Assembly (NCBI GenBank): GCA_002690445.1
Contig: NZER01000224.1
Coordinates: 1 to 22,497 of the forward strand
Reading direction: 5' to 3'
DNA: 22,497 nt
Source: Candidatus Pacearchaeota archaeon
Lineage (GTDB): Archaea > Nanoarchaeota > Nanoarchaeia > Pacearchaeales > GW2011-AR1
The position numbers and the translations under genes were made by a program. Shown in pieces: positions 3,377-22,497 of the stretch (positions are counted from its first letter, which is position 1; each line of letters begins with the position of its first letter). The notes beneath the pieces were generated by a model. The model was not told the origin of the DNA and ran no database searches. It saw only the letters and a list, made by a program, of their open reading frames with translations.

Positions 3377-5677
3377 TTATTCTCTCAAAAAGTCGCGTTC
3401 GGAACCCTCGACGGTTCCTCCGGTAGTACCCAAATCTCTTTCCATTTCCTGCCCATCGGCGGTTAGTCTGTTGTCCTGAATGAACTTTTCGGCCATAACG
3501 ACCAGAGTTCTGGGGACGTATTCGCCGCCACCCGCCTGCACTCGACTCTGCTCTGCCTCTATTGCCTTAACACGTTCAGAGAAAATTTCTTGCAGAAAGC
3601 GCATCTTCTGCTGTGCAAGTCCGGGCGAATCGCTCTGGAGCGGCAACAGCCTTGCCGCCGCGACGAGATCTCGGTCGCTTGGACGACCACCATTGAGGAT
3701 TCGGGCGATCTTGAGGCCGAATCCCGCAAGGGCGTCGTTGAGATTTGCCGAGTCGTCGAACAGATATCTTGCGAGGAATCCAGATTTGGGGTTTTCGTTC
3801 TTAGCATCGAACCCCGCGCCGAGAGCGGACATCACACCAAAACTGAAGCCCCGCAACCCGGCTTCCTCCCATAGGCCCGTGACCCTGGAACCTACCTGTT
3901 TCCCGTCGTCGTTGTAGATCGGTACTTCTTTGTAAATCTGGTCCAACTCGCCCTGGAAGGATTTGGCGTCGACCATCTGCAGGCGCTCGGTGGCCGAAGT
4001 GACCATTTTGGCGCGCAGTTTTTCCATCTTCTCGGCCACGTCAACGGCTTGCAGGCGCGCCCCGCGCATAAATGCGGCACGGATTCCTCCTTGCACTTCT
4101 TTCGTTTTGCTATTGTAGAGTTCCTGCGTTCCTTCGTCTTCCAGCATCTCCTCCCAAGAACCCAACTTTCGTCCCTGCTCTTCCATAAAGTCCAGATATG
4201 AATCAAGGACGTCATTTGGCGCACTCAGATCCCCTGCAAGGAATTGTGACCACTCGTTTGTCTCGCGGTCCAGTTGCCACCAAGACCCATCGTCGGCCCT
4301 TACCGTTTGCCTGTTTGGCTCACGTCCCGCATTTCCGATGGAGACTTTGACTAAGCCATCTTCACCCTGAACCAGCTGGAAAATCTCGCCGCCTATGGTC
4401 TTTACTCCTGCGAGCGCCGCAATGCGTTTTTCTTTATCCCGCTGCAACTCGTGCCGCTCCTGGGAAAGTCTATAATTTCTCTCTTTTAGATCCCTCTCCA
4501 GATTGGAATCTGCAAGCTTGCCCAAGGAAAGTCGATTAGCGAACTGGTCCTGTGATGCCTTTGTCTCTGCCTGCCTGCCTCCTCGAATGGCCTCAGAGAT
4601 TCCCTTTACGCCACCAAGAAGAGCGCCGAGGCGTCCCTCTGACGGAGTCGTTTGGGTTCCCCTTGCGCCACCCCTCGAAGACAAGGCGTTGATAAGGTTT
4701 GCACGGGCCTGCGAAGCACGGTCCTGCTTTTGAGCCTTCCTCATAGACCTGTTGGCAAATAAAGACTGGCCAATGTTTGCGGCTGCTTCGAGCAGCCGCA
4801 AGCCGGTCTGTGGCTTGTCCTGTTTAGGAAGAGGGATTCCCTGCTGGCCTGGGGGAGATCCGAAACCTGCCATAGATTGTTCATGTGATACCAAGCGCCG
4901 CGCAACGGCGATAGACTCCTTTGGGTCCATGCCCAGACCGATGAGTTGTCTCGCTCGTTCCTGAACTGCTTCAGTTTCGCCAGTCAAATCTGCTTCTGCG
5001 GTGGGGTCACCTTGTGTCGATGGAGTTTCGTCAGTGACCTCGATACCCTGTTCGTCCCCTCGACCAGAGATCATCGACTGAGCTTGAGTCAGGTAGCGTT
5101 GCCACCAGTCACCGGAAGCAGAGGGTGGCGGTGGGTCTTCTTGTGGGTCTTCTGCAACAACAGGGTCCGCGTCCGTGGGCGTTCCATATTTTTGGTGCAA
5201 CTCTTTCAGCGCAAGGGCCGTGGCCTGGACACGGTCGTCTGAGGCTTCAGTCGGGTCTTCTGCAACAACAGGGCCTTTGGAGCCTGGATCAAGCAGTTGG
5301 TCCAGGTAACGATCAAACGGACCACGTCGCTTGGCTCGACCCTGACGCCGGTCTTCCAACCAGTCAGAGTCAGATTGAACCTCAGTGTCCTCACCCAACT
5401 GGGGAGATGGTCCCGCCAAAGCGTCTGCAGAGGCCCCGCCAAAGGTGGCTGCTGTCGTCACGCCCGGAGGGGGGCCTGTGGGCGTCACGCCCATGAGGTC
5501 CACATCTCTCGGCAAAGGAATTGCCGAGAAATCCGTGGACCGCATTATTTCCTCGATCTCGTCATCCGACAAATCGCTGTAGAGTTTTTTCAACAGATGA
5601 CGATAAGTCTGGCGGTCGGGACTCGCACCATTGGTCCCTTCTGCCACGTCTAAGAGACTACCTATTCCTTTGGCCAT
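3377..5677 (-). CDS. Putative internal virion (ejection) protein, 766 aa
   Basis: No known domain is recognised. By position (after a small hydrophobic protein, before the 743-aa protein and fiber) it corresponds to a gp15-like internal core or ejection protein; this is inference. The first ~230 residues are acidic and Pro-rich and look disordered, with the heptapeptide PVVAEDP twice, 36 residues apart, and related RYLxQ segments. At about 290-400 the protein is Ala/Arg/Gln-rich and helical (coiled-coil-like, ERDLKERNYRLSQERHELQR). A more globular part with a Trp-rich patch (DDGSWWQLDRETNEWSQFL) follows, then long helices to the C-terminus. The ATG directly abuts the TAG of the upstream gene, and GGAGA lies about 7 nt before it, indicating translational coupling. 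No catalytic motif was seen. Confidence 0.75.
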   Translation of the reverse strand: MAKGIGSLLDVAEGTNGASPDRQTYRHLLKKLYSDLSDDEIEEIMRSTDFSAIPLPRDVDLMGVTPTGPPPGVTTAATFGGASADALAGPSPQLGEDTEVQSDSDWLEDRRQGRAKRRGPFDRYLDQLLDPGSKGPVVAEDPTEASDDRVQATALALKELHQKYGTPTDADPVVAEDPQEDPPPPSASGDWWQRYLTQAQSMISGRGDEQGIEVTDETPSTQGDPTAEADLTGETEAVQERARQLIGLGMDPKESIAVARRLVSHEQSMAGFGSPPGQQGIPLPKQDKPQTGLRLLEAAANIGQSLFANRSMRKAQKQDRASQARANLINALSSRGGARGTQTTPSEGRLGALLGGVKGISEAIRGGRQAETKASQDQFANRLSLGKLADSNLERDLKERNYRLSQERHELQRDKEKRIAALAGVKTIGGEIFQLVQGEDGLVKVSIGNAGREPNRQTVRADDGSWWQLDRETNEWSQFLAGDLSAPNDVLDSYLDFMEEQGRKLGSWEEMLEDEGTQELYNSKTKEVQGGIRAAFMRGARLQAVDVAEKMEKLRAKMVTSATERLQMVDAKSFQGELDQIYKEVPIYNDDGKQVGSRVTGLWEEAGLRGFSFGVMSALGAGFDAKNENPKSGFLARYLFDDSANLNDALAGFGLKIARILNGGRPSDRDLVAAARLLPLQSDSPGLAQQKMRFLQEIFSERVKAIEAEQSRVQAGGGEYVPRTLVVMAEKFIQDNRLTADGQEMERDLGTTGGTVEGSERDFLRE
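4777..4801. repeat. Perfect 10-bp inverted repeat inside the 766-aa gene
   Basis: TTGCGGCTGC and GCAGCCGCAA flank a 5-base loop (TTCGA). It encodes the LRLLEAAAN region on the minus strand. It may be a coding coincidence or a stable mRNA hairpin. Confidence 0.5.
5145..5273. repeat. Pair of identical 21-bp direct repeats (5145-5165 and 5253-5273)
   Basis: The two copies are identical and 108 bp apart, so the frame is kept. Each encodes PVVAEDP in the disordered N-terminal part of the 766-aa protein. This suggests a partial internal duplication of a 36-residue unit. Confidence 0.75.
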
Positions 5678-6136
5678 CTATCGTCTCCGACCATCGAACG
5701 GAGTGGTTCTGATCCACGTTTGGCGCTGTGCCATTGAAATAGATGGATCGTTCGCTTCCTGTGCCGTTACCGGTCGTCCATCGGGCCAAGACCACGGCGT
5801 TGCCTGCTGTGCGGACTCCCCTGCGATGGCACCCAAAGTGCCTACTTTCCCTGCGTTAGCGACGGCGTTCGGATCGACACCTTCTGAAAAGAGTTTGTTA
5901 ACAAGGCCGGTGATTTGGTTCTGCACAAGAGGGTCGCTCACCATCTGTTGGGCAAAGCTCGGACTTGCTGCTGCGCCTGCGGTACCCCGGCTTCCCTGTT
6001 GGCCAAGGCCCTGCAGAACTCTGTCCATCGCCGCGGCTCGGTCGCTTTTACGATTGGCCGCTTTCTGTGCGCGGTGGGCCATAAACAATTCTGCGCCTTT
6101 TAGCGCAGCAGGGATGGCAAGTGCTGGAAATCCCAT
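5678..6136 (-). CDS. Small putative internal virion protein with hydrophobic N-terminus, 152 aa
   Basis: Residues 3-20 (FPALAIPAALKGAELFMA) form a hydrophobic helix that could insert in a membrane. A Lys/Arg/Gln-rich stretch follows (HRAQKAANRKSDRAA), then Gly/Ala/Gln-rich linkers and a compact 90-140 region. A short protein with an N-terminal hydrophobic helix, between the nozzle and two very large proteins, fits a gp14-like ejection protein, but this rests on position and length only. The start is well supported: AGGAG overlaps the stop of the 946-aa gene and lies 6 nt before ATG. Its TAG directly abuts the ATG of the 766-aa gene. The C-terminus ends in DGRRR. Confidence 0.7.
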   Translation of the reverse strand: MGFPALAIPAALKGAELFMAHRAQKAANRKSDRAAAMDRVLQGLGQQGSRGTAGAAASPSFAQQMVSDPLVQNQITGLVNKLFSEGVDPNAVANAGKVGTLGAIAGESAQQATPWSWPDGRPVTAQEANDPSISMAQRQTWIRTTPFDGRRR

Positions 6137-6145
6137 GGGAGGCTC

Positions 6146-8986
6146 CTATCTCGGAAGGTTGAGTTTGGTTCTAAGGTTTTCCACTATGTGGGGCGGCAGG
6201 TTCAGCAGTTCAAGCATTGCCGCTCCAAACCCTTTCTGTAACTCATCTCCCGTACTAAATTGTACGGCAGGATCGAGCGCCGCAATGATCGAAGCAATCA
6301 CGTCCATGTCAGCTTGGCGCGCGTCGAGCGTCTGTTGGTCGCCAAGTACGCCTGTCAGTTCGGCTCGGGCGATTTCTCTGTCGGAAAGGGTTCGACCGAG
6401 GTCTGTGCCTGCGGTAATGCCTGCAGTCCTCAAGAGCCTTGCTCTTTCTGCCGCATCTGCAAGTGCGGAAAGTTCTGCGCGAGCCTGGTCGTCTGCCCGG
6501 AGGTTGGCCAGGTCGATAGTGTCACCGCCTCGAATGACACCAAAGCGACTCAGTTGCTCTCGATCAGCCTCCGCTCGGCGCAAGAACTTCGCTTGCAGAT
6601 CTGCCAGGATAGATTTTGTAAGCGGGTCTTCTCTGAGTTCTGCAGCTGTCTCCGGTCCTGCAAGGTCTGCGCGAATCGCGTCCTGCACATCACCGAAGAT
6701 TCCACCCGCACCAGGTACGGTAGGCGTCAAACCACCTATTTGGCCCTGAAGGGCGTCAAGGCGCTTTAGAATCTCACTCAAGTCCATTTCGCCGCCCTCG
6801 CCACCTTCACCGCCGCCGACCCCACCATATTCTGGCGTTATACCTTCCACTGCCGTGCGAAGATCAGCCAGTTGTCCGCCAACGCCGCCTGCGCCTACGT
6901 CTCCAAAGAATTGAGGCAGGCCAAGGTCTGCGAGTTGACTGCGAATGTCCCCGGAAAGACCTGTGCGGAGGTCGCCGATCATACTACGTATTCCAGAATC
7001 GTCAAACGGCTCTCCAGTGATATTTACATCACCCGATACCCTGTCGAGCAGATCGTTTACGGTGATGCTTGGAAAGCCCAAATCGCCAATGCCAACATCC
7101 GGTAAACCCAAATCGCTCACGCCAAGGCTGGGCAGACCCAAATCGCTTACACCAACATCTGGCAGGCCCAAATCGCTTACACCAACATCTGGTAAACCCA
7201 AATCTCTTACGTTGATGTCCGGCAAAAACTGATCGGGAGTGAGTCGCGTACTGCCCAAGGCTTGTAACAGATCCTCTTCTTCAACCTGTCCTAAGAACTG
7301 GTCCGCACCGAGTCGTGTGCTGCCCAAAGCTCGGGCCAGGTCTTCTTCGCCAACCTGTCCTAAGAACCGGTCAGGGCTGAGGCGCGTACTGCCCACGGCT
7401 CGAGCCAGATCTTCTTCTCCGACCTGTCCTAAGAACCGGTCGGGCCTCAGTCGTGTGCTGCCCAAGGCTTGTACCAAATCCTTTTCTCCGACCCGCCCTA
7501 AGAACTGGTCAGGAGTAAGTTGCTGACTTCCCAAGGCGCTGGCTAAGTCTTCTGGCCTTAGTCGCGGCAGGATCTGCTCGGGCCTTAGTTGCTGATCTCC
7601 GAGCGCACTAACCAGATCCTCTGGCCTTAGTTGCGGCAAAATCTGCTCGGGAGTGATCCGTTGATCTCCCAGCGCACTGGCTAAGTGCTGGGGCAAAACC
7701 GGCCCCAGGAACTGATCGGGGGAGAGTCGCTGGCTTCCGAGCGCCTTGGCCAGATCCTTCTGGCCAACCTGCCCCAAAAACTGGTCGGGAGTAAGTTGCT
7801 GGCTCCCCAGCGCATCGGTCAGATCCGCTTTGCGAACCCTCGGCAAGATGTCACTTGCAACCAAACCCGCTCCAGGCAAGGCATCCAGTAGATTCTGGCG
7901 TTCGATCAGTGGTAGAATGTCGTCCACGCCCAGCAAGTTGGCCAAGGCCAAGATATCCGTCCGCGCACCACCAATCGCTTTACTGATGGGATTAATGTTA
8001 AACGCGGTAGGCAACTGTCCAATTTCCGTCCGCAGGTCGGGTATATCGGTTTCTGCCAAACTCGTAACTTTGTCGCTCAATAGCCCCGTTTGCTCCAAGG
8101 CATCAGCCAACTGCCCCCCACGAGGAAAGAAATCTCCGGGGCCACCGCCAAATGAGCCGCCTGCGATATCCCTTAAAAAGCCTTGAGATTCTAAGAGAGA
8201 ATTTCTGACTTTGTCTATCGATGAGGGCGTTTCAAACGCAGAGATATCGTCAAGAATGCCACCGCTTCCCTCGAGCCTTTCAAGGAATGCGGAGAATTTA
8301 TCCGGCGTATCCCAATTACGAAACCGTTCACTTGTCGTGCCCCCGGTTTGGATGCTGTTGAGCATCTGCGCCAACGGAGAGCTTGGGTCCAGACCGATCT
8401 GTTGGAGTGCCTGCAGCAACGGAGGCAGGGACCGAAGATCGTTTAATGCCCTAAGCCTTTGGTCGGCGGTATCGAAGGCCCCACCTCGGTCTGGCCGGTT
8501 CCATTGGGGGTTGACGTACGGATCATATTCATAGTCGACCTCAATAGGTTCCTCGGGCCACAGATCTTCGTCAAGTTCAAATTCATTCGAGCCACGCGGC
8601 GGTACAGCGTTGGCGTCGGAGACGTGGGTCGAAAGGGGTTTTACTTCGGCTATGGGGCTGACAGACCCTTGATCCGAACCGCCTCCGCCGGGAGGAGCCG
8701 ACCCGCCGCCTGCTACTGCATTATTTGCGCCAGTAGAGGAGGACGTTGTCGTGGGCATGAAGCTGCCGAACCCCTGCGAGTGCCCCGTGACATTTCGGCC
8801 CGAAGTCGCGCCGATAAGAGTCCCGTCCGCAAAGATGCTGCGGTTGCCTTGCGTGTCCAGATCTCCGATCTGAATGCCGGGATCGAACCCTTGGTTACCG
8901 CGGCGAAGACGTCGCTTATCGAAACCCTCGCCAGTAATGTTGACAAGGTCTGGGTTTTTGAAGACGCTGAATGAACCTTCTGCCAT
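6146..8986 (-). CDS. Virion protein with two kinds of tandem peptide repeat, 946 aa
   Basis: Probably a structural or internal virion protein by position directly after the nozzle gene; family not recognised with certainty. The N-terminal ~120 residues are Gly/Ser/Thr-rich and followed by an acidic stretch (about 135-155). Helical, Leu-rich sequence runs to about 360. Residues 365-589 hold about ten 23-residue repeats of the form DLxxALGSxxLxPDQFLGQV. Residues 590-649 hold 10-residue repeats (DVGVSDLGLP). After a Gly/Glu linker (about 720-735), a long Ala/Arg/Leu helical C-terminal domain (about 735-946) resembles the conserved helical part of other phage proteins found at this locus. The start overlaps the previous stop (TAATG), with GGAG 8 nt upstream. 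No enzymatic motif is visible. Confidence 0.75.
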   Translation of the reverse strand: MAEGSFSVFKNPDLVNITGEGFDKRRLRRGNQGFDPGIQIGDLDTQGNRSIFADGTLIGATSGRNVTGHSQGFGSFMPTTTSSSTGANNAVAGGGSAPPGGGGSDQGSVSPIAEVKPLSTHVSDANAVPPRGSNEFELDEDLWPEEPIEVDYEYDPYVNPQWNRPDRGGAFDTADQRLRALNDLRSLPPLLQALQQIGLDPSSPLAQMLNSIQTGGTTSERFRNWDTPDKFSAFLERLEGSGGILDDISAFETPSSIDKVRNSLLESQGFLRDIAGGSFGGGPGDFFPRGGQLADALEQTGLLSDKVTSLAETDIPDLRTEIGQLPTAFNINPISKAIGGARTDILALANLLGVDDILPLIERQNLLDALPGAGLVASDILPRVRKADLTDALGSQQLTPDQFLGQVGQKDLAKALGSQRLSPDQFLGPVLPQHLASALGDQRITPEQILPQLRPEDLVSALGDQQLRPEQILPRLRPEDLASALGSQQLTPDQFLGRVGEKDLVQALGSTRLRPDRFLGQVGEEDLARAVGSTRLSPDRFLGQVGEEDLARALGSTRLGADQFLGQVEEEDLLQALGSTRLTPDQFLPDINVRDLGLPDVGVSDLGLPDVGVSDLGLPSLGVSDLGLPDVGIGDLGFPSITVNDLLDRVSGDVNITGEPFDDSGIRSMIGDLRTGLSGDIRSQLADLGLPQFFGDVGAGGVGGQLADLRTAVEGITPEYGGVGGGEGGEGGEMDLSEILKRLDALQGQIGGLTPTVPGAGGIFGDVQDAIRADLAGPETAAELREDPLTKSILADLQAKFLRRAEADREQLSRFGVIRGGDTIDLANLRADDQARAELSALADAAERARLLRTAGITAGTDLGRTLSDREIARAELTGVLGDQQTLDARQADMDVIASIIAALDPAVQFSTGDELQKGFGAAMLELLNLPPHIVENLRTKLNLPR
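7040..7219 (-). repeat. Six tandem 10-residue repeats (30-bp units) in the 946-aa protein
   Basis: Residues 590-649 hold six units of consensus DVGVSDLGLP. Copies at 600-609 and 610-619 are identical; outer copies are degenerate (DINVRDLGLP, SLGVSDLGLP, DVGIGDLGFP, then SITVNDLLDR). The array starts exactly where the 23-residue array ends. Confidence 0.9.
7220..7894 (-). repeat. About ten tandem 23-residue repeats (69-bp units) in the 946-aa protein
   Basis: Units begin at residues 365 (degenerate), 388, 411, 434, 457, 480, 503, 526, 549 and 572 (shortened), with exact 23-residue spacing. The core is DLxxALGS, Q/T, R/Q, LxPDQFLGQV and a charged triplet. Two sub-types are present: a PEQILPRLRPE type (434-479) and a PDQFLGQVGEE type. 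The DNA copies are also similar, so the array could expand or contract by recombination. Confidence 0.92.
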
Positions 8987-10575
8987 TATGAAACTCCTGC
9001 GCCGATACGGCGCTTGCGGCCAATGTTCTTGTACGTCGGATGTGTTCTACGAATACGGAAAAACTCATTGATAGTGTTGTTTGTGAATTTGATGCTCGAG
9101 TGCGGGTCATACTCACTGAGATCTGTGTCGTAGGCCAGCATTCTTACGGTGCCAAGTTCGGCCTCGTCAAGATTGTCCTCGTCCAAATCAAATCCACCGC
9201 CAGACACATTCAAAGTCTTTGTTGTTCCGGTGACGCCAGAAGACTCCTGGTTGACCGTGATGTTGTAGTTCCCTGTGGCATCGTAGTAGGTCCGAGCATA
9301 GAGCCAGCGGAGCCGCACTCCAGAACCTTCAGGAGCCGGGGCACCTGTGCGGAAGTAGGCACGGATAGCGATTCCGCTGGCAGATGCGTCGTCGTCCTTG
9401 TAGGTATTGTCAGGCTCATGGTCCATGACTTTACCGCCAATCGACCCCGACGAATTAAGAGTCCCCGCATGGGGTTTTCCGTCGATAGAGGCCGCACAGT
9501 TGCGGTAGAAATAGGAACCCGATCCGGTCATCGGGCCAAACCAACAATCGTGCCGATCCGAATAGACGATGATGTGATTCATTGCCGTCTGGCCAGTCCC
9601 ATAAGGAACCCAAAACCACGCCTCGGCTTCCTTGGGATAATAGACGGCAAACGCTTGCGTCAGGCGGCTGGTGACCAGCTCGGGCCAGTAGCCCAGGTCA
9701 AGCTGAAAAGACTTTTTCTCGACCTCGTCTTCCCCGTCCCACAGGTAAATCCCGTCTGCGCGCAGGAAAAGCTGCCTGTCGCCCGGAAGCACAACTATTG
9801 CACGGCCATTCAAAGCCGCGCGCCCTGCTCTTACACCACCGGAGTTCTCTCTCCCGGTCTTCTGCTGCTGCTGATAGGGGATGTCGGCATTGCCTGTCGG
9901 CACCAGCGTATAGATGCCACCCGTTGTATGCACGGTCAGCGCATTGCGGGTCGGGACCAATGCCGTGATGGGGTGGCCGAACTGGTAGAACGACGTTGCT
10001 CCGACAGTGTCAATGTCTGCGATGTCGGAATACCATAGCCGATCATATGACGTATCAACATTGCCCCACCAAACGCGGTTGTCCCAAAAGGCGACATGCT
10101 CCGCAGTGGTAAACCTCGAGTCCACGTCAGCCGCGGCGGCGGTGCTTGACCCCGTCCACTTCCAAGGGGGGTTTACGCCGTTGGTTGCCAGCAAAGTTCC
10201 GGTCGCCTCGTCCACTGCCCATTCAAACGTATTATCGTCTGCCGCAGTAATCGTCAGGCTTCCTGTGATAGCCTGCCATACGGGGGAGGATGCTGCCGAG
10301 TATTGGTAGATCGCTGTGCCAAATACCGCCACGACGTGGGTCGTAGAGGGCGGCACAGTAAACTCTGCGATCATTGTACAAGTAGGATTGGAGGTGTAGG
10401 CGGCAGCGGACTTATAGGACACAGTCCCCGGACGCTTCTCGCAGGCTCCTGCAGGCTGAATACGAACGTTTTCCATGGCGGAAATCTCGTCTTCAGCCAC
10501 ATCCTCTTCGGGGCGGGAATACCACACTCCGCCGGTCCAGGGGCCTAATTGAATGTCTTCGCCGTCAATAGCCAT
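8986..10575 (-). CDS. Tail nozzle / tail tubular protein B-like, 529 aa
   Basis: The protein is beta-rich with many Trp/Tyr residues and repeated blade-like segments (for example NGRAIVVLPGDRQLFLRADG, IYLWDGEDEVEKKS, AFAVYYPKEAEAWFWVPYG, IIVYSDRHDCWFGP). This is typical of the beta-propeller nozzle proteins of short-tailed phages (T7 gp12 / P22 gp10 type). The N-terminus contains SAMENVRIQPAGACEKRPG, a common opening for this class. Role: the last ring of the short tail, below the connector, through which DNA leaves. It follows the connector gene with its ATG next to the previous TAA, and ends in a TAATG overlap with the 946-aa gene. The ribosome site is weak (GGCGG), so coupling is likely. 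Nozzle fits well; the exact family is less sure. Confidence 0.8.
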   Translation of the reverse strand: MAIDGEDIQLGPWTGGVWYSRPEEDVAEDEISAMENVRIQPAGACEKRPGTVSYKSAAAYTSNPTCTMIAEFTVPPSTTHVVAVFGTAIYQYSAASSPVWQAITGSLTITAADDNTFEWAVDEATGTLLATNGVNPPWKWTGSSTAAAADVDSRFTTAEHVAFWDNRVWWGNVDTSYDRLWYSDIADIDTVGATSFYQFGHPITALVPTRNALTVHTTGGIYTLVPTGNADIPYQQQQKTGRENSGGVRAGRAALNGRAIVVLPGDRQLFLRADGIYLWDGEDEVEKKSFQLDLGYWPELVTSRLTQAFAVYYPKEAEAWFWVPYGTGQTAMNHIIVYSDRHDCWFGPMTGSGSYFYRNCAASIDGKPHAGTLNSSGSIGGKVMDHEPDNTYKDDDASASGIAIRAYFRTGAPAPEGSGVRLRWLYARTYYDATGNYNITVNQESSGVTGTTKTLNVSGGGFDLDEDNLDEAELGTVRMLAYDTDLSEYDPHSSIKFTNNTINEFFRIRRTHPTYKNIGRKRRIGAGVS

Positions 10576-19289: not shown

Positions 19290-20009
19290 CTACTGAAATT
19301 CTCGGACAAGAAGTGCTGGGATGTTTCCAACCTCTTCCCCTTGGTTTCGCAGCAACCTCAGAGCCTCAAGCCGGTGCGCTCCCTCAAGGACAGTGGGGAA
19401 ACCCTGGGCGTCATCTACGACGATCAGCGGGTCAATTCTTTTGGACTGTTTTATGGCCTCTGCCAACTGCTCGGATCTACGGAGGCTATTTGCTGCGACA
19501 AAACCCCTCTGGTCAAGATCTGTTAGGTGAGTCAAGGGAATCTCCCTGACTCCAGGCTGGACTGCATAGTCATCGAGCGACGAAGAGATTGACGATGTGT
19601 TGGGTATTTCTCCCCCCACGCTAAACCCAGATACCTCATCCCCAGCCTTTGGAAACTCTCCAAAGTTACCGCGCCGCAAAGGATTGGAAAATCTTCTCAA
19701 GGCATCTTTACCCGCAGCCAACTTGGAAGCCAACTTCAACAATCCACGCAAATCACCAGGACTCAGCGGCACTTCAGAAAAGGTCGGCTCTGGCGGCAGA
19801 TCACCGCCGAGGGCCACATCCATACGAGTTCGTTGCGGATAGTCTGTGGAGGGCAACCGATGGGCGCGGCCCGTAGAAGACTTGGTGAAGGTATCATCCA
19901 CCGGCGGTAACTGGTTCTGTCCTTTGCGGCCCGAAGTTGCAGCGATGGCGACGTAAGGCGCAATTCGCGCCAGGTTAGTCAACAAGGCTGTTTGGTTCTT
20001 CTGTGCCAT
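19290..20009 (-). CDS. ParB/sulfiredoxin-fold domain protein, 239 aa
   Basis: The C-terminal ~90 residues carry the ParB N-terminal-domain pattern: REIPLTHLTDLD, then NSLRRSEQLAEAIKQSKRID, PLIVVDDAQGFPTVLEGAHR and LEALRLL. The EGAHRLEAL segment (E209, H212, R213) corresponds to the GxxR nucleotide-binding box of ParB-like proteins. The first ~150 residues are unrelated: a hydrophobic N-terminal helix (TALLTNLARIAPYVAIAATS) followed by a Pro/Ser/Gly-rich linker and a basic patch. No helix-turn-helix domain follows, so it is not a full plasmid ParB. Start 20009 is chosen for AGGAGG 6 nt upstream, not the ATG seven codons earlier. It overlaps the 82-aa gene by 35 bp. DNA binding, nuclease or packaging roles are all possible. 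Confidence 0.7.
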   Translation of the reverse strand: MAQKNQTALLTNLARIAPYVAIAATSGRKGQNQLPPVDDTFTKSSTGRAHRLPSTDYPQRTRMDVALGGDLPPEPTFSEVPLSPGDLRGLLKLASKLAAGKDALRRFSNPLRRGNFGEFPKAGDEVSGFSVGGEIPNTSSISSSLDDYAVQPGVREIPLTHLTDLDQRGFVAANSLRRSEQLAEAIKQSKRIDPLIVVDDAQGFPTVLEGAHRLEALRLLRNQGEEVGNIPALLVREFQ

Positions 20010-20223
20010 CCTGTTCCTCCTCTGGTACAAACCAGGCTCGTATCTTTGGATTTATTTGGGAAAAATCGTCATCGGTAAAGGCGAACCCCATACCAAGAGA
20101 TTTTACAAACCCCTGCAAAAAGATACCAAGTTGTTCCGCCGTGCAGTTTTTGGGGATTTGGAGTTCATACTGGCGCATCTTGGGAATGCCGAGAATCGGG
20201 ATGCTTGGACCGTCTTGATTCAT
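19975..20223 (-). CDS. Unknown small protein between terS and the ParB-like gene, 82 aa
   Basis: Family not recognised. Visible segments are PILGIPKMRQYELQIPKNCT, AEQLGIFLQGFVKSLGMGFA and an acidic C-terminus (VPEEEQDGTEEPNSLVD). A mix of beta-strand and one hydrophobic helix suggests a small globular protein. It is supported by a 4-bp ATGA overlap with terS and by a coherent hydrophobic pattern. Its end overlaps the ParB-like gene by 35 bp, which carries the strong ribosome site for that gene. Position suggests a packaging or DNA-binding accessory, which is inference only. Confidence 0.65.
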   Translation of the reverse strand: MNQDGPSIPILGIPKMRQYELQIPKNCTAEQLGIFLQGFVKSLGMGFAFTDDDFSQINPKIRAWFVPEEEQDGTEEPNSLVD

Positions 20224-20795
20224 GGGGTTCCCACTGGAAATTGGTTATTTACTCGAGAAATGGCACCCTTCGTGGTCGAAAAACGGGCAGGAAGTTCCGA
20301 AATCACCTTTTCGGGGGGTTCGACAGGCGGTTCCTCGACAACTTCTGCATCTACGATGCGATCTTTGTCCATGATGGCATTCTGCTTGTTCCATTCCTCG
20401 TAAGTTGAAGCTCGAGGCGGTAGATTCACGCCCACTGCACCCTGGTGTGTAACTTCTACCTCGATTTTATCATCTCCAACCTCGGCACGGACGGCAGAAA
20501 GGATCTTGATCTTCATGGCAGTCTGGGAATCCGTCAGATTCTCGTAGATAGCCTCCAGCTTCTTGACCCGCTCCTTGCGGTCTGCCAGCTGTACGTCATC
20601 GAAGTTTGCCCGATATAATTTGACCTGACGGTCGTATTCCTGTCTGAACAGAGAAGACTTACGCCATTTCGTAATGGTTACCGGCAAAACCCCCACGTTG
20701 GCGGCAACCGCAGCGTTGAGATCTCCCTTGGTCCAGCGATCCATCACCAAATAGTGAATCGCCTGCTTTTGCTGCTCTGACAGAGACTTAGCCAA
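20220..20795 (-). CDS. terS: Terminase small subunit, 191 aa
   Basis: It recognises the packaging start site and hands DNA to the large subunit. The N-terminal helix-turn-helix is clear (residues about 24-55: DLNAAVAANVGVLPVTITKW, RKSSLFRQEYDRQ), in the style of the phBC6A51-type terminase HTH. A Lys/Arg/Asp/Glu-rich coiled coil follows (DVQLADRKERVKKLEAIYEN), for ring formation, and then a Pro/Glu-rich C-terminal tail for contact with the large subunit. It is the first recognisable packaging gene of the leftward operon and overlaps both neighbours (8 bp with the 90-aa gene, 4 bp with the 82-aa gene). An intervening ParB-like gene separates it from terL, which is unusual. Confidence 0.82.
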   Translation of the reverse strand: MAKSLSEQQKQAIHYLVMDRWTKGDLNAAVAANVGVLPVTITKWRKSSLFRQEYDRQVKLYRANFDDVQLADRKERVKKLEAIYENLTDSQTAMKIKILSAVRAEVGDDKIEVEVTHQGAVGVNLPPRASTYEEWNKQNAIMDKDRIVDAEVVEEPPVEPPEKVISELPARFSTTKGAISRVNNQFPVGTP

Positions 20796-21060
20796 GATTC
20801 CTCGCTATATGCTGCAGAGTCGCAATGATGTTTTGCATATCAGATTCAAGATTGGAAAGCCGCTGCGACATCATCTTCTCATGGAGCGCCTGACGATCCT
20901 GAAGCAAATTAAGAGAAGCACGGAGGCTGTGGATGTCATCCAAAGTGCCACAAGAAATATCCACCAGCGTAGACTCCATGCCCGAATCAAAAATCATCGC
21001 GCGCACAACATCATCATAAGGCGCGTCATCCTCCAAAGCCAGCACCTGACTACGCTCCAT
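20788..21060 (-). CDS. Unknown coiled-coil protein upstream of terS, 90 aa
   Basis: Family not recognised. Start at 21060 (MERSQVLALEDDAPYDDVVR) is preferred over an ATG at 21099 because GGATGG lies about 6-10 nt upstream and the overlap with the previous gene is only 11 bp. The N-terminal half is acidic with a short hydrophobic patch (MIFDSGMESTLVDISCG). The C-terminal half is a likely coiled coil (LRASLNLLQDRQALHEKMMS, QRLSNLESDMQNIIATLQHI), so oligomers are expected. It overlaps terS by 8 bp, so it is probably coupled to it. Confidence 0.6.
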   Translation of the reverse strand: MERSQVLALEDDAPYDDVVRAMIFDSGMESTLVDISCGTLDDIHSLRASLNLLQDRQALHEKMMSQRLSNLESDMQNIIATLQHIARNLG

Positions 21061-21283
21061 AGCGATCCATCCAAGCCTCAACCCGTGAATGGTGAACATT
21101 GAGCCATGTGGAATCCATTCCGCAAGTAATCCGCGTTCCAGAAAATTTGCCAGGCTTCATCAAAAACATATGCCCCGTCTTGCGCGACAATGCCTTCATC
21201 CGCAGAAACTCACGCAAACAACTGTCCACCGTCAGTGCATGACACTGACCCACCGCTGACGGACACTCCTTCACTGCAAACAT
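21050..21283 (-). CDS. Unknown small protein, 77 aa
   Basis: Family not recognised. It has four Cys residues (C8, C14, C22 and C54 by my count), a basic middle (REFLRMKALSRKTGHMFLMK) and an aromatic C-terminus (WLNVHHSRVEAWMDRYGA). The cysteine spacing is not a standard zinc finger. It is supported by tight packing: 23 bp after the RHH gene, overlapping the 90-aa gene by 11 bp, with GATGAGAG about 7 nt before ATG. Position between the regulator and terS could mean a control or packaging role, but the sequence does not show it. Confidence 0.55.
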   Translation of the reverse strand: MFAVKECPSAVGQCHALTVDSCLREFLRMKALSRKTGHMFLMKPGKFSGTRITCGMDSTWLNVHHSRVEAWMDRYGA

Positions 21284-21306
21284 ACAAAACTCTCATCCAA
21301 AAAACA

Positions 21307-21528
21307 TCACACCACATGTCCCTTGTCGAGTAAACCAGTCGAACGCTCCTTCAAATGATCCACCTCCCGACGCAACTGAGCCAACTGCTCACGCACATCA
21401 ACGTCGAACGAAGGCTTGTCCATCGCCACGTTAATCAACTCCCGCACAACCTCACTCATCGATGGACCCTGGCCACGCAACCAAGCCACATGACCCTCCT
21501 CCAACATCACATTCTGTCTAATCATCAT
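21307..21528 (-). CDS. Ribbon-helix-helix DNA-binding protein, first gene of the leftward operon, 73 aa
   Basis: The start MMIRQNVMLEEGHVAWLRGQ gives the beta-strand and first turn. SMSEVVRELINVAMDK gives the two-helix part of a ribbon-helix-helix (Arc/CopG/omega) fold. A C-terminal coiled coil follows (VREQLAQLRREVDHLKERS), suggesting dimers or tetramers. RHH proteins bind operators as dimers through the beta-ribbon. The length is close to plasmid omega and P22 Arc/Mnt-size regulators. Start 21528 or 21525 (adjacent ATGs). The frame is open upstream to 21786, but that part is low-complexity and reads through the hexamer array, so it is not counted. GGAGG lies 13 nt before this ATG; a four-codon out-of-frame ORF between them ends in an ATGA overlap. 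Autoregulation through the array is inferred. Confidence 0.72.
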   Translation of the reverse strand: MMIRQNVMLEEGHVAWLRGQGPSMSEVVRELINVAMDKPSFDVDVREQLAQLRREVDHLKERSTGLLDKGHVV

Positions 21529-21658
21529 TGATTCATCATTTCCTCCACCCCAAACAATAACACCCCACACCAGATTACACAACCATGCGGAAGTGGTAAT
21601 GATATAGACACTGACCTGCAATAGCCCCCGTAGTCCCCCCGGATCGGCTTCACCTTCG

Positions 21659-21730
21659 ATTAACGTTGACGTCAACGTTAAGTTTAAAGTTGACGTTGAC
21701 GTTAACGTTAAGGTTGACGTCAACGTTGTG
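21659..21730. repeat. In-phase array of twelve GTTRAC-type hexamers
   Basis: Hexamers abut with no spacer. GTTGAC starts at 21665, 21689, 21695 and 21713; its inverse GTCAAC at 21671 and 21719; GTTAAC at 21701; GTTAAG at 21677 and 21707; ATTAAC at 21659; TTTAAA at 21683; GTTGTG at 21725. Bases 21660-21681 form a perfect 22-bp palindrome, 21702-21711 a 10-bp one and 21713-21724 a 12-bp one. Unspaced short repeats in both orientations are typical of RHH-protein operators (omega/ParR style) or replication iterons. Confidence 0.93.
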
Positions 21731-21855
21731 CCTCGAGTGAGGGTGGTTGTCGCTAGGTGGTGATGGACGTCCGTACAGGGGCACACAATACACGGTAGGG
21801 TTCGGGTTCGACAATCCCCGGTCTTCTCTCCTTATACCCCTTTACGGCTACAGAC

Positions 21856-21890
21856 GGGACGCTCCGCGCAAGCGTCCCCGGCTTCCGGGG
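21856..21890. repeat. Two overlapping GC-rich hairpins
   Basis: GGGACGCT (21856-21863) pairs with AGCGTCCC (21871-21878) around a 7-base loop. CCCCGG (21876-21881) pairs with CCGGGG (21885-21890) around CTT. They share bases 21876-21878, so both cannot form fully at once. No T-run follows on either strand, which argues against a simple terminator. Confidence 0.8.
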
Positions 21891-21924
21891 ATAACTTTAT
21901 TTGTACGCTCCCCCTGTTTTCGTG

Positions 21925-21953
21925 TTGCGTTAATGCAGAGTCCCCCGTACATT
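21925..21953 (+). promoter_or_regulatory. Candidate sigma70-type rightward promoter
   Basis: TTGCGT (21925-21930) and TACATT (21948-21953) are separated by 17 bp; each matches its consensus at four of six positions. Transcription would start near 21960 and drive the rightward small genes. Not unique enough to be certain. Confidence 0.4.
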
Positions 21954-21961
21954 CTGTCATA

Positions 21962-21980
21962 CGTTAACAATCGGTTAACG
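21962..21980. promoter_or_regulatory. GTTAAC inverted-repeat operator candidate
   Basis: CGTTAAC and GTTAACG are separated by 5 bp, and a further GTCAAC follows at 21982-21987. The same hexamers make up the array 230 bp away. The site covers about +2 to +20 of the candidate rightward promoter, so a bound protein could block it. Confidence 0.55.
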
Positions 21981-21998
21981 TGTCAACGGGGGCACAGC

Positions 21999-22082
21999 AT
22001 GACGACGTATCGCACCACAGCGCAAGCGCCCCGTATTACACACTTACCAGTAGGGGGATGTAATGAGGACTCGCAAGCATAG
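21999..22082 (+). CDS. Possible leader ORF of the rightward operon, 27 aa
   Basis: ATG at 21999 has GGGGG 6 nt upstream. The peptide MTTYRTTAQAPRITHLPVGG then CNEDSQA ends 20 bp inside the next gene. Composition (Thr/Arg rich) resembles its neighbour. It may be a translated leader or chance; a longer TTG-started frame through it (from 21747) is not convincing. Confidence 0.3.
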   Translation: MTTYRTTAQAPRITHLPVGGCNEDSQA

Positions 22083-22236
22083 CTCAATATCTCGTAGCGA
22101 GATGGCCGAGAAATTGAGGACACACCGAACCAGCCGGGACGCTTACTATACGGTGAGCACGACGGGCTCACGGTCACTGTCGATCGAACGGGACGGAAAC
22201 TACCGCCACTATTACACCGAGAGGAAAGCGTCATGA
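22063..22236 (+). CDS. Unknown small basic protein, 57 aa
   Basis: Family not recognised. The peptide runs MRTRKHSSISRSEMAEKLRT, then HRTSRDAYYTVSTTGSRSLS, then IERDGNYRHYYTERKAS. The first half is basic and helical. The second half has alternating residues suggesting two or three beta-strands, with many Tyr. A nucleic-acid-binding role is possible by charge alone. The start is supported by GGGGG 5 nt before ATG. Its TGA overlaps the ATG of the next gene (ATGA), so the two are translated together. It is the first well-supported gene rightward of the control region. Confidence 0.6.
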   Translation: MRTRKHSSISRSEMAEKLRTHRTSRDAYYTVSTTGSRSLSIERDGNYRHYYTERKAS

Positions 22237-22394
22237 CACGGGGACGACCACAGAAACACGGGGAGAAGACGCGCGCCGTTAGTTTGCGCGTCCCCGTGTC
22301 AGTATATGAGACCGTCGTTGACGCTCAACGGGACGGGGAAACGTGGACGGACGCCGCAGTAAGAATCCTAAAAAGAAAGCGCAGGAATAAATGA
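22233..22394 (+). CDS. Second ribbon-helix-helix-type DNA-binding protein, 53 aa
   Basis: The basic N-terminus MTRGRPQKHGEKTR leads into the beta-strand AVSLRVPVSVYETV and the helical part VDAQRDGETWTDAAVRILKR, ending in a basic tail (KRKRRNK). This strand-helix-helix order and length fit Arc/CopG-type regulators. GRP in the first residues also resembles an AT-hook-like contact. It has its own ribosome site (GAGAGGAAA about 8 nt upstream) and overlaps both neighbours by 4 bp. A 13-bp inverted repeat begins at its start codon and may control its translation. As the second gene rightward of the control region, it is a candidate partner or antagonist of the leftward RHH protein. Confidence 0.65.
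   Translation: MTRGRPQKHGEKTRAVSLRVPVSVYETVVDAQRDGETWTDAAVRILKRKRRNK
22235..22300 (+). repeat. Inverted repeat spanning the start of the second RHH gene
   Basis: GACACGGGGACG (22235-22246) is perfectly complementary to CGTCCCCGTGTC (22289-22300), and the pairing extends one base outward to 13 bp. A second ACACGGGGA at 22256-22264 could pair with the same right arm instead. Two exclusive RNA folds near the start codon are possible. Confidence 0.6.
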
Positions 22395-22497
22395 CACAGA
22401 CCAAGTGGCCACAATCGTTTTTCGAATTGACGGGGATGATCGAACATTGCGGCAACGTGTTAGCCGATATCGAAGTCGAAGGTGACGACGACAATGA
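22391..22497 (+). CDS. Start of a third rightward gene (cut by window edge), unknown
   Basis: ATG at 22391 overlaps the stop of the RHH gene by 4 bp (ATGA), and the frame stays open for 35 codons to the end of the window: MTQTKWPQSFFELTGMIEHC, then GNVLADIEVEGDDDN. It is acidic at the visible end, and not recognised. The overlap chain makes it a probable member of the small-gene operon. Confidence 0.5.
   Translation, partial: MTQTKWPQSFFELTGMIEHCGNVLADIEVEGDDDN

Follow-up and report, generated by a model that had tools for sequence, protein, structure and literature searches.

Results

A hexamer array in the divergent gap of a phage

In an uncultured phage, twelve in-phase hexamers of the class GTYRAC, set end to end in both orientations, form an array. 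The array is conserved in one relative, and its hexamer recurs in promoter gaps. We predict that the array is a multi-promoter operator for a phage regulator, a reading that we consider a serious candidate, somewhat short of probable. The DNA analyzed was a stretch of 22,497 bp (the window), which is an IMG/VR virus record. The genes of RHH1 (130 bp from the array), terS, terL, and the major head protein are on the minus strand to the left of the array. A small rightward operon, which begins at 22063 and includes RHH2, is on the right. Thus, the array sits in a divergent gap (Table 1). The first ORF of this operon had no significant family match. Comparison of positions 20500-22497 with 50,697 phage records found no similar DNA.

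Two other features of the window were recorded. A 946-aa ORF (6146-8986) contains tandem repeats (30 and 69 bp; 7070-7826) as part of its coding sequence, and a minus-strand gene (19290-20030) encodes a protein with a C-terminal ParB-like match (PHROG 1033, E 3.6e-6).

Table 1. Positions of the array, neighboring features, and AATC repeats of relatives
Feature	Position	Strand	Basis or remark
GTYRAC-class hexamer array	21659..21730	.	Twelve contiguous in-phase units, both orientations
Possible hairpin, 21 pairs, 8-nt loop	21661..21710	+	Predicted fold, also in G001
Possible late-gap element GAAGGTGAAGCCGATCC ... TATATCATTACC, adjoining the array	21595..21657	-	By-eye likeness to the element of relatives
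Promoter-like TTGCGT-17-TACATT, immediately before the second cluster	21925..21953	+	By eye
Second cluster, three exact GTYRAC (21963, 21974, 21982)	21963..21987	.	Overlooked in the preliminary description
RHH1, 73-aa RHH-like protein, candidate binder	21307..21528	-	ORF and family matches of relatives
RHH2, 53-aa RHH-like protein, candidate binder	22233..22394	+	ORF and family matches of relatives
57-aa ORF, leading gene of the small rightward operon that follows the second cluster	22063..22236	+	ORF list
terS, small terminase subunit	20220..20795	-	PHROG terminase small subunit, E 3e-7
AATC repeats	L138 1138, L148 6250, L192 5100, L195 7011, L197 7113, L125 3783, and six others		

The twelve units read, in order, ATTAAC GTTGAC GTCAAC GTTAAG TTTAAA GTTGAC GTTGAC GTTAAC GTTAAG GTTGAC GTCAAC GTTGTG. 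The preliminary description had counted twelve GTTRAC hexamers. Its strict 6-bp phase and both orientations were confirmed, but its count was loose: seven of the twelve units fit GTYRAC exactly, three have one mismatch, and two have two mismatches. The perfect palindromes that it had listed were all found again in the window, one of 22 bp (21660-21681), one of 12 bp (21713-21724), and two of 10 bp (21699-21708 and 21702-21711). The in-phase score of the array was 65 of 72; the highest scores in 20 Markov shuffles of the window were 36-43. Three consecutive GTYRAC with at most two mismatches gave eight matches in the window, against an expected 0.02 and a maximum of one among 100 shuffles. The array is real and far above chance.

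The array core is conserved in the closest relative

A search with RHH1 found only one close relative with DNA, G001 (IMGVR_UViG_3300030329_003188, 37,234 bp; also L011 and L038 in our locus sets), which is 94.6% identical over the array region. Its array (8939-8998) has ten units. The array core of the window (21659-21712) differs from G001 at 1 of 54 positions, and this change (21673) stays within GTYRAC. The second cluster region (21955-21995) differs at 1 of 41 positions, and the stretch between the array and this cluster at 40 of 224. Compared with the 224-bp stretch, Fisher p was 0.0012 for the array core and 0.009 for the second cluster. The flank towards RHH1 (6 of 130 positions differ; p 0.68 against the core) is conserved like the core, so the footprint is clear on one side only. 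The outermost three units of the array differ at 7 of 18 positions.

A protein of a third close phage, P0002, is 92% identical to RHH1. Its N-terminal reading leaves the window frame where the last array unit would be; if this reading represents upstream DNA, that phage would have different letters at the last unit. G001 also carries, on its minus strand (424-918 and 792-1295), genes for a RusA-like resolvase and a Mom-like DNA modification protein. An HTH protein is encoded at 3890-4108 of the same genome.

The same hexamer recurs at other gaps

GTYRAC clusters were defined as at least three sites with gaps of at most 18 bp. The window has two, at 21665-21724 (seven exact sites) and 21963-21987 (three). 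G001 has three, at 6035-6052 (three sites), 8667-8691 (three), and 8939-8992 (six). All five are intergenic. Any such cluster appeared in only 2 of 300 order-2 Markov shuffles, for the window and for G001 alike.

In the second cluster of the window, two hexamers are within an inverted repeat, ACGTTAAC-N5-GTTAACGT (21961-21981). The cluster is at about +2 to +28 relative to the promoter-like sequence in front of it, and alignment placed TTGCGT-17-TATATT at the counterpart position in G001. A divergent gap of G001 contains the cluster at 6035-6052, which forms a perfect palindrome of 18 bp. TATAAT follows it 9 bp downstream, so that by the usual spacing the palindrome covers about -39 to -22. 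A consensus promoter scan listed neither of these by-eye promoters and showed no excess of promoter-like sites; both promoters are therefore putative.

Hexamer clusters at other promoter gaps are as expected for the sites of a trans-acting DNA-binding protein, and it is chiefly for this recurrence that we favor an operator over a local accident. In the operator that we predict, a phage-encoded dimeric DNA-binding protein would recognize GTYRAC hexamers and fill the contiguous sites of the array cooperatively. The operator gap would be the one between the leftward late genes (RHH1, terminase, and capsid) and the rightward RHH2 operon. The same regulator would use the smaller clusters at other promoter gaps (21963-21987 in the window and 6035-6052 in G001), and several transcription units would thereby come under joint control. 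We infer both the binding of a protein to the array and repression by it.

Predicted folding of the array

On the plus strand, the array of the window folded with a z of -6.1, and the matching strand of G001 gave -7.2; none of 200 shuffles reached so low a value in either case. The opposite-strand folds had z of -3.4 (window) and -1.8 (G001). The inverted repeat at 21661-21710 might be a structural element, either an RNA stem of a rightward transcript or a DNA cruciform, with the hexamer look being secondary. The long stem predicted in both phages is consistent with this, and the sole core change (21673) turns a C-G pair into U-G and keeps the stem. However, a single change is no covariation, and folding is inevitable for hexamers arrayed in both orientations, so the stem by itself is not decisive. 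The gaps of relatives also gave strong folds, in all 36 loci folded (best z -2.1 to -8.3, calculated with no control region), but they occurred on either strand. A scan found no T-run terminator at the array. The contiguous 18-bp copy in G001 and the spaced second cluster form no long stems. A hairpin would explain the in-phase hexamers and the kept stem but not the spaced second cluster, and we regard it as quite unlikely.

RHH1 and RHH2 as candidate binders

It is plausible from the gene content that an RHH protein binds the array. That this protein is one of the two RHH-like proteins encoded nearby is, taken alone, a tentative assignment. Among 5.8 billion proteins, RHH1 had four homologues and RHH2 had two, with 91-98% identity. 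A search of IMG/VR with RHH1 gave three loci, two of them over 32 residues only. A profile of RHH1 (window, G001, and L058) found orthologues in L126, L124, L052/L128, and L130 (E 9e-23 to 6e-10), where L126 scored the same as its seed. Four aligned orthologues were 24-30% identical to RHH1 of the window.

Family profile searches gave no significant match for RHH1 or RHH2 themselves. For L142, a relative of RHH2, the Pfam family RHH_5 matched with E 1.4e-5 (25.2 bits versus a cut-off of 26), and NCBIfam BrnA (5.5e-4) and a nickel regulator (0.041) matched far below their cut-offs. L130, a relative of RHH1, had a NikA-like match (E 0.02), and the RHH1 profile matched the antitoxin MazE7 (E 0.065). 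AlphaFold monomers of RHH1 and RHH2 (mean pLDDT 69.0 and 67.9) contained helices and no strand. The strand of an RHH protein forms in the dimer, so strandless monomer models say little. Foldseek with the RHH1 model gave no match at E <=0.001 and no RHH protein among the best 50 matches listed.

The preliminary description had placed the array next to an RHH gene. The 73-aa ORF is there, with the array upstream of it, and the relatives of both RHH-like proteins have weak family matches, but the RHH fold found no support in the AlphaFold and Foldseek results.

The late gap of distant relatives contains other repeats

With terS as the anchor for finding relatives, a TerS profile gave 124 of them. 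In GTDB genomes searched by TerS profile, 43 stretches matched a pattern, and none was confirmed. The loci of 80 relatives were taken, and the sequence upstream of terS was analyzed, up to 6 kb, in every one of the 39 loci that had 1.5 kb or more of it. In 38 of the 39 (L190 was the exception), repeats in the densest window were denser than in any of 10 shuffles; the 39 include near-duplicates, and some densest windows, that of G001 among them, are one-strand arrays. The densest window was also outside ORFs of at least 160 aa in 34 loci; it was inside a long ORF in L128, L138, L191, and L194. The gene caller used in this analysis misses small genes.

The repeated words were CCATTGG/CCTATGG with GGCC (L124, L125, and L130), TAGGCCTA (L153), TTCAATAGG (L142), CTAGTACTAG with CCAAGG (L154, L170, and L164), GTCTAGAC (L179), and ACCAAGT (L138); they were AT-rich in L155, L158, and L167. 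Eleven hand-chosen arrays had 22-110 inverted 6-mer pairs each, compared with 0-11 in one-strand arrays. Among 46 loci tested, one had a GTYRAC array, which was G001. L129, L131, and L136, outside this run, had no two adjacent GTYRAC upstream of terS. An array was located upstream of the RHH1 orthologue in all five loci with enough upstream sequence (G001, L124, L125, L126, and L130); none was seen in the 430 bp available upstream of the orthologue in L128. Many loci in which no RHH1 was found had short-unit repeats of other words in the same gap.

For 5 of 12 arrays (G001, L154, L138, L145, and L171), the array's own word recurred elsewhere above the maximum of 30 shuffles, the counts for L145 and L171 being those of GC-rich words in loci with genes not called; the other seven showed no recurrence above this level.

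Conservation of the array in related genomes, a test named in the preliminary description, thus holds for G001, the 1 of 46 relatives with a GTYRAC array. Arrays are upstream of RHH1 orthologues in other relatives too, but they use other words there and occur without RHH1 as well. The proposal of a control-region operator gains from the strict phase of the hexamers, from conservation in G001, from recurrence of the hexamer at promoter gaps, and from the short-unit arrays upstream of RHH1 orthologues. Counting against it are the rarity of GTYRAC arrays among the relatives, the equally conserved flank towards RHH1, the diverged outer units, the P0002 reading, the repeats in gaps without RHH1, and the seven arrays whose word does not recur.

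The repeats of relatives bear on a further explanation, in which the late gap gathers tandem and palindromic repeats through replication slippage and template switching, with no binding protein, and the array would be merely the current product in this lineage. Consistent with this, relatives have dense repeats of short units in the same gap; their words are unrelated, and many of the repeats run in one orientation. Slippage would account for these other words and for part of the in-phase hexamers, but it leaves unexplained why the same hexamer is clustered at further gaps of the genome and why a conserved core lies beside a diverged stretch. We consider it unlikely. An operator explains the in-phase hexamers and their recurrence directly, and the other words of relatives if specificity changes fast. 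Under the operator reading, phages of this family would usually have a dense, often palindrome-rich array in their late-gene control gap, with differing words, and some would use their own word again at another gap far away. Operators would then form a code that switches quickly, each lineage having a single regulator specificity, a generalization that we regard as doubtful.

In two relatives, genes at 4699-5882 (L197, beside an HTH gene) and 4048-4995 (L195) resemble tyrosine recombinases by eye, so part of the phage family may be temperate.

Coding and centromere readings

A scan of IMG/VR for four consecutive GTYRAC gave 30 stretches, most of them in ORFs. Besides G001, mixed words were present only in L017, L029, and L040, with one second-word copy each, and frames of 363, 102, and 109 aa, respectively, span these stretches.

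The array might be a coding dipeptide repeat, since a 159-aa frame runs through it in the window, a 165-aa frame does so in L003, and most of the IMG/VR arrays are in ORFs. The part of the 159-aa frame between the array and RHH1 had one synonymous and four non-synonymous changes on 32 and 97 sites, respectively. These changes show no purifying selection, and a coding repeat was disfavored. A plasmid-like centromere was grouped with it, as the architecture of the array is parS-like. However, a search for ParA was negative in both records (the window and G001, both perhaps fragments), while all 14 control genomes were positive. The centromere reading of the preliminary description lost support with this result. 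Together, a centromere or a coding repeat is scarcely credible as the explanation.

A conserved late-gap element and its possible relation to packaging

In relatives, the gap contains a single-copy element with no known name, GARG[TC]GAANCGACC ... CGAACCCGNATATACTC. A regular expression around CGAACCCG-ATATAC had 13 matches in 521,226 bases (38 loci), one per locus and all within 3 kb upstream of terS; it had no match in the window or G001. Profiles of the element extend to further relatives. In IMG/VR, it was present in 33 loci, some of which are slices of longer contigs, and a second, stricter pattern matched one contig. The copy nearest to a locus end was 132 bp away. A cos end was considered unlikely, as all 33 loci have the element in an internal position.

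In 29 of the 33 loci, the repeat density found within 700 bp of the element was higher than the 99th percentile for the remainder of the locus, and in 18 it was the locus maximum. The loci were picked regardless of repeats, and the value near the element is the maximum over about 140 windows, which makes the comparison generous. Many repeats near the element are in one orientation. In the window and G001, GAAGGTGAAGCCGA(T/A)CC adjoins the array and resembles the element of L153 and L155 by eye; by profile, the likeness did not reach significance (E 6.4 for G001, compared with E 0.34 for the best shuffled match).

The element is possibly a late promoter or a pac site. For the array itself, a packaging site would mean that the small terminase binds it near its own gene. 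The array is 864 bp upstream of terS, and relatives have the conserved element in the same gap, both of which fit. However, clusters at other promoter gaps would be unexpected for a pac site, and phages with no array word in common have TerS proteins that are 39-52% identical. We regard packaging as highly improbable.

AATC repeats and a possible origin

One-strand direct repeats with an AATC core were observed 2.9-6.2 kb upstream of terS. Their net count was at least 8 per 100 bp in 12 of 24 loci, with shuffles at 5 or fewer in those (Table 1). G001 has five copies at about 5871-5965, not above shuffles by net count. These repeats are possible iterons of an origin.

The array could likewise be an iteron-like initiator site of a replication origin. 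It consists of contiguous repeats in a divergent gap, and the relatives have iteron-like AATC repeats in a separate early gap. However, no initiator was recognized near the array among the scanned proteins. The usual iterons are long direct repeats, from which the mixed-orientation 6-bp units differ, and the AATC arrays are better origin candidates. An origin at the array is therefore very unlikely.

Discussion

The nearest known architecture to the phage array is that of the plasmid omega/parS arrays. In pSM19035, parS has six sites of 7-10 consecutive 7-bp repeats in mixed orientation and overlaps the promoters of three genes. The RHH protein omega (ParB) binds it, and full activation of the ATPase requires four or more contiguous repeats (PMC9499535). 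The phage array resembles parS in its contiguous short repeats of mixed orientation, in its clusters at several promoter gaps of one replicon (promoters partly by eye), and in the small candidate RHH genes nearby (PMC9499535). It differs in its unit, 6-bp GTYRAC versus the 7-bp WATCACW given there for parS, and in that the hexamer is near-palindromic as a class whereas the heptad is not (PMC9499535). Unlike omega/parS, the phage records yielded no ParA. By analogy, the phage array may work like the omega/parS kind.

The met boxes of MetJ are 8-bp tandem sites of an RHH repressor. Similar to these, the phage array consists of unspaced tandem palindrome-like sites, and GACGTC occurs in it where GTTGAC meets GTCAAC. 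A difference is the 6-bp step, and a MetJ-like binder of the phage array would be conjectural. Mycobacteriophage stoperators are a further parallel, in which one repressor uses many dispersed genome sites and the immunity specificities of relatives evolve. Stoperators are described as dispersed and asymmetric, whereas the phage array is contiguous and near-palindromic, and the protein type differs. In a literature search that had most subscription papers outside its scope, nothing relevant on phage hexamer-type or short-repeat arrays was found.

An array of contiguous 6-bp units whose word recurs at several promoter gaps of one phage offers a substrate for studying how a small dimeric regulator might spread on DNA when the step is neither 7 nor 8 bp. 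The gap of relatives, written in other words, is a natural series for following either the co-change of operator and regulator or the decay of a gap into regulator-free repeats.
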